A DNA stretch of 64,000 nucleotides from positions 2,480,001-2,544,000 of the forward strand of contig NZ_CP117811.1 of NCBI RefSeq assembly GCF_028728065.1, written 5' to 3'. A program made the translations under genes and the position numbers. The notes beneath the pieces are model-generated. The model was given only the letters and a program-made list of their open reading frames with translations. It did not search any database and was not told the origin of the DNA. The stretch's first letter is position 1, and the number at the start of each line of letters is the position of its first letter. Of the stretch, positions 2,229 through 6,469 are shown one piece after another. The DNA comes from Lentisphaera profundi. Its GTDB lineage: Bacteria > Verrucomicrobiota > Lentisphaeria > Lentisphaerales > Lentisphaeraceae.

Positions 2229-2675
2229 ATGAAAACTTTTTTTGAACTCACTAAATTCATCATCACCAGTAGTCTGTTTTATATGGCTTATTGCCTCTTG
2301 TATTTAAATTTCTGTGACAGTGATTTGCCAAAGGATTTCCTTACTTATTCTCAAGAAGTGGGTTCATTCTACAATGCTATTTACCTTGTAGAAATATCAA
2401 AGATGGTCATCCTTCCCGCACTCATGCTCACGGCTTTGAGTGCTTTAATCAGCCAAAAAATAGTCTCTGAGAAAACTTTGCAGCTCGCCATCAGCTTGGC
2501 TTTTGCTGCTTTTATTCCCAATATCAGCGATTTAAAGGTACAAGTATTTCTTTCTTCAATTTTCTTTTGTAGCATGGCTATCGTGCCACAAATTCATCTT
2601 TCTATATTTCAGCTGAAAAATAGAAAAAAGAAAAGCGCTGTTCCACTTTACGTCTCACAAGAGACCGTGGCCTAA
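2229..2675 (+). CDS. Unknown membrane protein, three to four predicted helices
   Basis: A 148-residue protein with hydrophobic segments near residues 8-28, 55-75, 85-105 and 108-128 and a basic tail (QLKNRKKKS). I do not recognise a family. GGGGATC just ahead of the ATG gives a GGGGA ribosome site. A TTGACT at 2167-2172 could be a -35 box but no convincing -10 follows, so no promoter is called. It is monocistronic and converges on the leftward recQ gene. Confidence 0.6.
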   Translation: MKTFFELTKFIITSSLFYMAYCLLYLNFCDSDLPKDFLTYSQEVGSFYNAIYLVEISKMVILPALMLTALSALISQKIVSEKTLQLAISLAFAAFIPNISDLKVQVFLSSIFFCSMAIVPQIHLSIFQLKNRKKKSAVPLYVSQETVA

Positions 2676-2680
2676 TTAAA

Positions 2681-2854
2681 CTAGACTCCTAGTTCGCGAA
2701 CCAAGTCTCGTATACTCTGATAGGGTAAACTTTCACAAGAAGCAAAGCCCGGAAGCGATTGAATCTTATTGCGGCTAAACGCCGGCACTTTGATCCCCGC
2801 TAAAAAACGACAGAATAATTCAGAACTAAATTTTGCTTGCGCGGTGGCCGGCTA
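2681..2854 (-). pseudogene. In-frame continuation of recQ beyond an amber codon
   Basis: Reading recQ through the TAG at 2852-2854 gives 56 further sense codons before the next stop (TAG, 2681-2683), beginning PATAQAKFSSELFCRFLAGI and ending IRDLVRELGV. I checked this codon by codon. The stretch has the look of the small C-terminal helical segment of many bacterial RecQ-like proteins (F-L-x-G-I, then a Pro-rich basic turn and a hydrophobic helix); that match is from memory. Full length would be 645 codons. A nonsense mutation, readthrough or a sequencing error would all give this pattern. Confidence 0.75.
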
Positions 2855-4618
2855 CTTCTGTTGTAGCTGAGGTAAAAACTCTTTTAAGTCCTCTAGACTT
2901 GGCGAAGAAACTTTTTGCGAATAGCGCAATTTGGCAATCTCCCCTCGACAAACACTGCAATGACCACAATTAGAAGTCACTTGTGCATCATCAAAGTGTT
3001 GGGCTAAAGCCTTGCTTAGACAGGCTTCCCCTTCAAAAAATTTGACTAAATTCGCAATTCTCTGAATTTCACTCTTTTCCTTACTCAAAAAATATTCGGA
3101 TAAGTCACTTGCCAAGTGAGCCTCGGAGGCGCGAGCTACATTTACTTGATAAACATCCGTGATTTTTTTACTTTCTAAATTAATCCACGCATTCTCATGT
3201 AAATACTCCAAAGCCGTAACTGCACGTCCACGTTCGGCACCATAGGCTTGTTTGAGCTGCTTAAAGTTGGGTTCGCACCAAATTCGTTTCTTTGAACCGG
3301 TCTGAAAAACCGCTTGTAAAAAGCTTTTTCTTTCTCCCTGAAATCGGGCTAAAATATCGGCTTCATTGACAAGAAATTTATAACGTAAGTCGGCATAGTA
3401 AGAGAATTTCGCTTGAATCACTCCCTGCATTTCTAAATGAACCAAGAGAGTCTTTAAAGGCAATTGACGAATATTGCTACTACTGGAGAGAGTATTGATC
3501 TGCATCTCCCATTGATCGCCATGAGTCTCGGCTTGAATGATCTGAATTACTTTTTCAATCCCAGTCAATTCTGGTGTATCACCGTACACAAAATTCTCCA
3601 CCGTATTAAGCCCATCTAAATTCGCTAAAGTAATGCATTTAGAAGCTTGGCCATCACGCCCTGCACGGCCAATTTCCTGACTATAGTTTTCGATTGACTT
3701 GGGTAAATCATAATGGATCACATAGCGAATATTAGCTTTGTCGACACCCATACCAAAGGCTATGGTAGCGACCACTGTTTGATCTTCACTCTGCATAAAT
3801 TGATCTTGAATTCTCAATCGTGCCTCAGTCGGTAAACCTGCGTGATACGATACTGCATTGATTCCTTGCTCACGTAAGTACTGTCCCACTTCATTAGCTG
3901 TATGCTGTAGGGTAACGTAGACAATTCCCGCTCCAGAATTTCCTTGGACACTCTCTAATAAGCGCGCCAACTTATGGCTCTGTGATGTAGGTACTACCGC
4001 TAAATCTAAGTTCGACCGATAAAAACCTGTCTGCACCATGTGATTTTGAGCAATAGCGAATTTTTTGCACATATCTTCTTTCACCTTACGAGTAGCTGTT
4101 GCCGTGAGCAACAGCACCATCGGGATATTTAATTCTTTTTGATAGGCAGGTAATTTGAGATAATCTGGACGAAAATTATGTCCCCATTCAGATATACAGT
4201 GAGCTTCATCTACCACTAATAAAGAGAGTTCTATTGATTCGATGAAACTACGAAAACGTTCATTTTTAAAGCGTTCGACTGATACCATGAGAATTTTAAT
4301 TTCACCACGACGTATTCCATCAATCGTTTGGCGTTGAGCCTCAAAGCCCTGTGTAGAATCTATACTCGCCGCTGCAATTCCTTTTGAATGGAGAAAATCA
4401 ACCTGATCTTTGATCAATGCTAGCAAGGGTGAAACGACTAAAGTCAATTTGGGTAAATGTAAGGCCGCCAGTTGATAACATAGTGATTTGCCTGAACCCG
4501 TGGGGAAAATAGCTAAGCTACTTTGACCTTGGAGTAATTGCTGAATCGTTTGTTCTTGCCCTTCTCGAAAACTTTCGAAGCCAAAAATTTCTCTCAATGA
4601 CGTTTTTAGATCACTCAT
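2852..4618 (-). CDS. recQ: RecQ-family ATP-dependent DNA helicase, ending at an in-frame amber codon
   Basis: A 3'-5' superfamily 2 helicase for recombination and fork repair, 588 residues to the TAG at 2852-2854. Visible in order: Walker A (FPTGSGKSLCYQ), DEAH box (VVDEAHCISEWGHNFRPDY), TATA motif (LLLTATAT), helicase C domain with FGMGVDKANIRYVIHYDLP and the arginine-finger motif QEIGRAGRDG. The RecQ zinc-binding cysteines follow near the C-terminus (ACLSKAL... NCGHCSVCRGE). Translation continues in the same frame for 56 codons past the stop (next entry), so the gene appears to be prematurely terminated. The helicase core is intact, so activity may remain. It overlaps the 3' end of mutY by 8 bases, which points to coupled expression in a repair operon. 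Confidence 0.93.
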   Translation of the reverse strand: MSDLKTSLREIFGFESFREGQEQTIQQLLQGQSSLAIFPTGSGKSLCYQLAALHLPKLTLVVSPLLALIKDQVDFLHSKGIAAASIDSTQGFEAQRQTIDGIRRGEIKILMVSVERFKNERFRSFIESIELSLLVVDEAHCISEWGHNFRPDYLKLPAYQKELNIPMVLLLTATATRKVKEDMCKKFAIAQNHMVQTGFYRSNLDLAVVPTSQSHKLARLLESVQGNSGAGIVYVTLQHTANEVGQYLREQGINAVSYHAGLPTEARLRIQDQFMQSEDQTVVATIAFGMGVDKANIRYVIHYDLPKSIENYSQEIGRAGRDGQASKCITLANLDGLNTVENFVYGDTPELTGIEKVIQIIQAETHGDQWEMQINTLSSSSNIRQLPLKTLLVHLEMQGVIQAKFSYYADLRYKFLVNEADILARFQGERKSFLQAVFQTGSKKRIWCEPNFKQLKQAYGAERGRAVTALEYLHENAWINLESKKITDVYQVNVARASEAHLASDLSEYFLSKEKSEIQRIANLVKFFEGEACLSKALAQHFDDAQVTSNCGHCSVCRGEIAKLRYSQKVSSPSLEDLKEFLPQLQQK

Positions 4619-5675
4619 TATTTAAGTTCCTTAGAATTTTTTCGCTGGCCGTGGAAATGTGTTCCTGAGGTTCTGGCCATTTTAAAAAAGTAAATTCGCG
4701 ATCGGTCAGAACTCCAAGGTCCCGAAAATCTAACTCATCCATTTCTAACCAATGATTGCGAATGCGGTAACGGGTTATTGCTGTGGTAATTTGTTCCGAG
4801 GAATAATCTGCGAGCTTTGCAAAGGGATATTGTTTAAAATCTTTATCTTCTGAGGAAATTACTATTGTCGGAAGCTCCCATTGATCCCTCAGCCATTCAC
4901 CCTTATTCTTTTTATAAAAGAGTAGTTCGCCAGATTTATTTCTAATTAAAACTCGCACCAACTTAAGTTCAGAAATGATAACTTTCTTTTTTTCTTTTTT
5001 GTGGGGGATTTCCTCTACGCATTGCTCGTGAAAGGCTTTACAGGAAGATTGTAAGCTACATTCAGTACATTTGGGATTGCGGGGTTTACAAATTGATCGT
5101 CCCAAGTCCATCAAGGCCTCATTAAATTTGCGAGGGCCACAAGATTCTATGATTTTAGCAAAGAGTTTATTATGCATAAGTGACTGCACTGCTTTTTGGA
5201 GCTTCGGCCCCTGCTCTTCTCTAATTAAAAAATAACGGCTCAATACCCTCTGTAAATTCCCATCTACTGCTAAGGCCAATTCATTTCTACCAATAGCTGT
5301 CAAAGCGGCTGCCGTATAAGGCCCGACTCCAGGGATCTCCTGTAATTTTTCTTCTCCCTCCGGAAAATCACTTCCTGACTGATGAATCATTTTCACGGCT
5401 TTGTAGAGGTTCTGTGCACGGCGATAATAACCCAAACCCTTCCATGCTAAAGCTAAATCCGCCTCGTCTGCTTCTGCGAGTGATTCTAATGTCGGAAACT
5501 GTACAAAAAAACTTTCATAACGGGGTAACACAGTTCCAACTGTCGTCTGCTGTAACATCACTTCCGAAACAAGTACGCGATATAAATCACGCTCATCGGT
5601 TCGCCAAGGCAAACCTGCATAATTAGCTAAGGACCACTTGATCAATTCTATAAAATCTTGTTGCATATTTTCCAA
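4611..5675 (-). CDS. mutY: A/G-specific adenine DNA glycosylase
   Basis: Removes adenine paired with 8-oxoguanine. 354 residues from TTG at 5675, or 351 from the ATG at 5666; no strong ribosome site decides between them. Seen: the MutY N-terminal LPWR, the catalytic-Glu region SEVMLQQTTV, GLGYYRRAQNLY, the helix-hairpin-helix EIPGVGPYTAAAL, and the catalytic Asp in VDGNLQRVLSRY. The iron-sulfur loop has the spacing C-x6-C-x2-C-x5-C (CKPRNPKCTECSLQSSC). The C-terminal third is the NUDIX-like 8-oxoG recognition domain. The frame stays open without a start codon for about 22 codons upstream of the TTG. The downstream recQ overlaps by 8 bases. Confidence 0.95.
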   Translation of the reverse strand: MENMQQDFIELIKWSLANYAGLPWRTDERDLYRVLVSEVMLQQTTVGTVLPRYESFFVQFPTLESLAEADEADLALAWKGLGYYRRAQNLYKAVKMIHQSGSDFPEGEEKLQEIPGVGPYTAAALTAIGRNELALAVDGNLQRVLSRYFLIREEQGPKLQKAVQSLMHNKLFAKIIESCGPRKFNEALMDLGRSICKPRNPKCTECSLQSSCKAFHEQCVEEIPHKKEKKKVIISELKLVRVLIRNKSGELLFYKKNKGEWLRDQWELPTIVISSEDKDFKQYPFAKLADYSSEQITTAITRYRIRNHWLEMDELDFRDLGVLTDREFTFLKWPEPQEHISTASEKILRNLNNE

Positions 5676-5818: not shown

Positions 5819-6469
5819 ATGATAAACATGGATTTTAGCCAAGCCTGCTGCATTCATAGCCATAATCAAGAATGGTTACAGAGCCCTCTGGCTGGTGTAT
5901 GGCGGAAGCCACTCGAACGAGAAGCTGCGGAACACGGTCACGTTACGAGCATAGTGAAATACGAAGCTAATTCTTATTTCAAGGCACATTCACACCCACT
6001 CGGTGAAGAAATCTTTGTACTTGAAGGTACTTTTTCGGATGAGACTGGCGACTTTGGTCCAGGAACATATATCCGTAATCCTCCGGGAAGTCAGCATAAA
6101 CCCTTCAGTAAAGATGGCTGTATTATTTACGTTAAACTCAATCAATTTGGCGAAGATGATTTAGAATCCAAACGCATCAATACATTAGAAGCAAGCTGGA
6201 GAGAAGGTATTGGCCAACTTGAAGTTATGCCCCTTCATCAATTCAATAATGAAAGCATCACCCTCGTCAAATGGCCTGCAGGTGAAATTTTTCAGCCTCA
6301 TCACCATACGGGAGGAGAAGAAATATTTGTCATCAGTGGTGAATTCATCGATGAACACGGTAGCTACCCCCAATATACTTGGTTGCGTAGTCCGCATAAT
6401 AGCCATCATTTTCCGCGCGTCGAAAAAGAAACAATCATTCTAGTTAAAACTGGTCATCTTCCTCAATAA
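5819..6469 (+). CDS. Double-cupin protein, ChrR-like
   Basis: 216 residues with two tandem cupin folds of the kind seen in ChrR C-terminal domains. The first has H-S-H-P-L-G-E-E-I-F-V-L-E-G then G-x-Y-I-R-N-P-P-G-S-Q-H. The second has H-H-H-T-G-G-E-E-I-F-V-I-S-G then W-L-R-S-P-H-N-S-H-H. Each retains the His-His-Glu...His metal ligands. There is no zinc-binding anti-sigma N-terminus, so it is a stand-alone cupin and not an anti-sigma factor. The ribosome site GAAGGAAG precedes the ATG. It stands alone between leftward genes. The ligand is unknown. Confidence 0.85.
   Translation: MINMDFSQACCIHSHNQEWLQSPLAGVWRKPLEREAAEHGHVTSIVKYEANSYFKAHSHPLGEEIFVLEGTFSDETGDFGPGTYIRNPPGSQHKPFSKDGCIIYVKLNQFGEDDLESKRINTLEASWREGIGQLEVMPLHQFNNESITLVKWPAGEIFQPHHHTGGEEIFVISGEFIDEHGSYPQYTWLRSPHNSHHFPRVEKETIILVKTGHLPQ

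Follow-up and report, generated by a model that had tools for sequence, protein, structure and literature searches.

The recQ1 locus

The window analysed here is the stretch of 64,000 nucleotides at G000:C1:2480001-2544000, part of a genome (G000) of 5.46 Mb in two contigs. The reverse strand carries a recQ gene, recQ1, whose ORF (2852-4618) starts with ATG and ends with TAG at 2854-2852 (Table 1). Beyond this codon another 56 sense codons follow in frame before the next TAG, at 2683-2681. These coordinates and counts, given in an earlier note on this DNA, proved to be exact, as did the readthrough frame of 645 codons, which is the sum of 588 codons, one stop position and 56 codons. The same note placed intact core helicase and zinc motifs upstream of the TAG, and this was borne out by the Pfam matches. 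The order cupin-mutY-recQ is conserved in the two sister species whose genomes were compared (G001 and G002). The convergent ORF has no match next to recQ in these species.

Table 1. Position of the features around recQ1 in the window, and of the in-frame stops found in sulfatases of G001
Feature	Position	Strand	Remarks
recQ1 coding part before the stop	2855..4618	-	588 aa; DEAD + Helicase_C core, RecQ_Zn_bind (Pfam)
In-frame TAG, codon 589	2852..2854	-	Aligned codon TTC (Phe) in G001, TTA (Leu) in G002
56 open codons, conserved C-terminal helical tail	2684..2851	-	Orthologue alignment, residue retention, structure model
Second TAG, closing the readthrough frame	2681..2683	-	Near the end (TGA) of both orthologues
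mutY	4611..5675	-	Upstream of recQ, whose start it overlaps; also adjacent in both sister species
Cupin-type gene	5819..6469	+	Divergent from mutY; neighbour conserved in both sister species
Convergent ORF, membrane-type	2229..2675	+	148 aa; its stop is 5 bases from the second TAG
Sulfatase in-frame stops in G001	C2:896149, C1:2524625, C2:66158, C1:367473

The RecQ product and its C-terminal tail

The product is assigned to the RecQ family by its score against NCBIfam TIGR00614 (recQ_fam), which is 361.9 bits without the tail and 368.7 bits with it (cut-off 219.8). Against the model of the canonical RecQ equivalog, TIGR01389, recQ1 reaches 418 bits, under the cut-off of 640.2, and the intact G001 orthologue likewise stays below it (426.5 bits). 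The invariant cysteines C533, C551, C554 and C557 are present. An AlphaFold model of the readthrough frame, built from 11 sequences with the TAG position entered as Gln, has a mean pLDDT of 88, and its top Foldseek matches are the RecQ catalytic cores 4tmu, 1oyw and 4q48. In this model a helix at 575-588 finishes just before the stop, and the tail is folded into three helices (599-607, 612-616 and 633-643) with block pLDDT values of 81-90, preceded by a weaker linker (66). The end of the helix at 588 and the separate helices of the tail indicate that the stop coincides with a domain border, leaving both the helicase core and the zinc-binding domain untouched. RecQ helicases of some 640 residues that end in an RFL-G---P tail are known; recQ1 has the same core, the same zinc-binding domain and, past the stop, the same tail, and differs in that its frame is cut by the TAG ahead of that tail.

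The orthologous frames are uninterrupted, with 643 aa in G001 and 641 aa in G002, and are 71% and 70% identical to recQ1. The tail aligns without gaps to the C-termini of both proteins, with amino acid identities of 69% and 64%; the part before the stop reaches 71% and 70%, and the tails of G001 and G002 are 67% identical to each other. The conserved pattern in this alignment with the two sister species is SELFCRFLAGIKVPAFSRNK-QSL-GFA-CE, and the motif RFL-G---P also occurs in more distant homologues, including the RecQ of Marinomonas sargassi (L041). The proposal that the open codons encode the normal C-terminal segment of RecQ is thus upheld by the ungapped alignment and by the distant homologues, and relatives ending at the same residue, the case that would have spoken against it, were looked for among the orthologues and not found. 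Internal stops are absent from all RecQ homologues listed for 59 relatives. The interrupted column itself is variable, reading F, L, F, A, A, E, G, S, G, S at position 589 among the homologues.

Residues identical in G001 and G002 were used to measure whether the tail has drifted. G000 retains 33 of 37 of them in the tail (0.89) and 388 of 474 upstream (0.82), and about 75% of the equal-length upstream windows retain the same share as the tail or less. No further stop or indel occurs within the tail alignment. Synonymous sites were saturated in the NG86 dN/dS estimate for recQ, which made it uninformative. The lack of decay in the tail implies that the stop is recent, is an assembly error or is bypassed.

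Decoding of TAG and origin of the interruption

Conserved genes were compared both ways in sampled stretches covering 1.2 Mb of G000 and 0.8 Mb of G001. This comparative scan replaced one of intrinsic coding potential, which is insensitive to short tails; there the recQ tail was not ranked high and only the sulfatase stood out. Stops were set aside when they were judged to precede the true start codon or to fall at the very end of a gene. What was left in the 170 conserved genes of G000 were two real internal stops, one in recQ and one in a sulfatase, both of them TAG, together with one or two frameshifts, while the 173 conserved genes of G001 contained a single real internal stop, a TAA that falls in a sulfatase, plus one frameshift. 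Among the sulfatases listed genome-wide, a single stop inside the domain was found in one of about 150 in G000 (TAG) and in four of 150 in G001 (three TAA and one TGA). The gene comparison and the sulfatase counts thus point to solitary stops as a background feature of both genomes. Lone stops of every kind affect about 1-3% of conserved genes, which matches published levels of pseudogenes, at 1-5% of gene-like sequences (PMC522871). In Salmonella, 346 of 378 pseudogenes carry a single lesion (PMC2916853).

An amber codon read genome-wide by a suppressor tRNA or as pyrrolysine was among the options raised earlier. Like the genes decoded in this way, recQ1 has an in-frame TAG flanked by conserved sequence, and the internal stops in the compared genes of G000 are TAG in two cases out of two; however, a count of two carries no weight, and the stops in G001 are TAA and TGA. 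Unlike the situation of amber-suppressed or pyrrolysine genes, the means of decoding TAG were not found in G000. None of its 56 tRNAs, with 33 anticodons, has the anticodon CUA (RF00005 hits read by ARAGORN, with 150 of 323 first-look candidates scored), and the best match to pyrrolysyl-tRNA synthetase (PylS) scores 30.6 bits, far short of the cut-off (178.15) that one control genome passes. TAG also behaves as a normal terminator, closing 73 of 422 long ORFs (17%) in 800 kb of G000, much as it closes 46 of 223 (21%) in G001, and it interrupts one of the about 150 sulfatases listed in G000. Stop usage, the tRNA set, the absence of PylS and the occurrence of interruptions by all three stops led to the rejection of amber reassignment, and the probability left to genome-wide suppression or pyrrolysine decoding is close to nil.

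Readthrough could also be confined to this gene, some ribosomes decoding the TAG with a near-cognate Gln or Tyr tRNA, so that two forms of RecQ would be made and the tail would be kept under selection. Misreading of UAG by tRNA-Gln has been reported in E. coli (PMC5289835), and the base 3′ of the recQ1 TAG is C and not U, which reduces readthrough when it follows the stop (PMC5289835), a weak point when taken alone. The conservation of the tail is equally predicted by readthrough, which counts against a nonsense mutation, but a recent mutation predicts the same conservation. On the other side, the TAG is confined to one species, so that a conserved recoding signal is lacking, and folding of the RNA across the stop was no better than that of shuffles (z = +0.61), for which reason programmed readthrough through an RNA structure was rejected. 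The regulated readthrough envisaged in the earlier note was therefore left without positive evidence, and functional readthrough is very unlikely. That a leaky TAG provides a minor full-length RecQ beside the truncated form, with selection preserving the tail, seems more improbable still; if it were true and the second recQ of the genome is frameshifted, the cell would owe all its full-length RecQ to the leaky codon. Synthesis of the tail as a separate protein by restart was also considered and is unlikely, because the first in-frame start after the TAG, a GTG 22 codons on, sits inside the conserved tail motif.

The possibility of an error in the assembly or base calling, in which case the true codon would be a sense codon and RecQ full length, is bound up with the second recQ. 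This longer gene (G000:C2:1598914-1599959; L072, L092) is 88% identical to a 771-residue protein of G001, and the paralogue is intact, with 771 aa, in both sister species. In G000 it is split by a one-base deletion near codon 133, located in a C-run next to G (CCCCCG; GATTATCCCCCGTT), a type of site that is prone to long-read assembly errors. The assembly into two contigs suggests that long reads were used, and a tail devoid of any decay would be expected if the stop were an error. Errors in long-read consensus sequences are mostly homopolymer indels, whereas the lesion in recQ1 is a substitution outside a homopolymer. In addition, frameshifts were as rare as stops in the 170 compared genes, with a similarly low rate in the sister genome, which indicates that the assembly is not rich in errors. 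An error at the recQ1 codon appears, on balance, rather unlikely.

The interruption is probably due to a nonsense mutation that arose recently in this lineage and cuts RecQ short at a domain border. This is the best supported of the four options that the earlier note had left open. According to this explanation, a substitution specific to the species or strain would have made a TAG of a non-conserved codon where the zinc-binding region meets the C-terminal tail; in the sister species this codon stands for Phe or Leu. Ribosomes would stop at this codon and release a RecQ of 588 residues that has the helicase core and the zinc-binding domain and is devoid of the 56-residue helical tail. The substitution would be truly present in the organism, termination would be efficient, and the shortened enzyme would be stable or at least tolerated. 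Young pseudogenes with a single lesion (Kuo and Ochman 2010, PMC2916853) resemble recQ1 in having one point mutation, lineage specificity and otherwise intact, conserved sequence. The lesion is absent from close relatives and the remainder of recQ1 is conserved, as in a truncated allele with a single lesion. Only about 9% of the recQ1 frame is lost, in contrast to the 20% loss used as the premature-stop criterion in that study (Kuo and Ochman 2010, PMC2916853), which suggests that the shortened RecQ may still work. With the gene whole in both sister species and similar single breaks scattered over both genomes examined, the stop in recQ1 has the look of a commonplace recent mutation that removed the tail.

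Possible consequences of the recQ lesions, and lone stops in sulfatases

Both recQ genes carry a lesion in the G000 assembly, and the pair may mean either that RecQ function is truly lost or that two errors were made. If both lesions are real, one full-length RecQ is missing and the other is shortened, and the organism would be a naturally occurring example of diminished RecQ function. If both are errors, two named places in the assembly call for checking. The significance of the finding is mostly one of annotation, since recQ1 ought to be annotated as truncated in comparison with the orthologues of the sister species. No relevant paper on a Lentisphaera genome was found in the literature searched.

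A separate observation concerns the sulfatases, which form a very large set in G000, with at least 150 sulfatase-domain matches in the genome. The interrupted member in G000 (L112, C1:2648926-2648929) is interrupted once, by an in-frame TAG at residue 51; its G001 homologue, 91% identical, has Tyr there. Lone breaks in this large family may be frequent in the genus.
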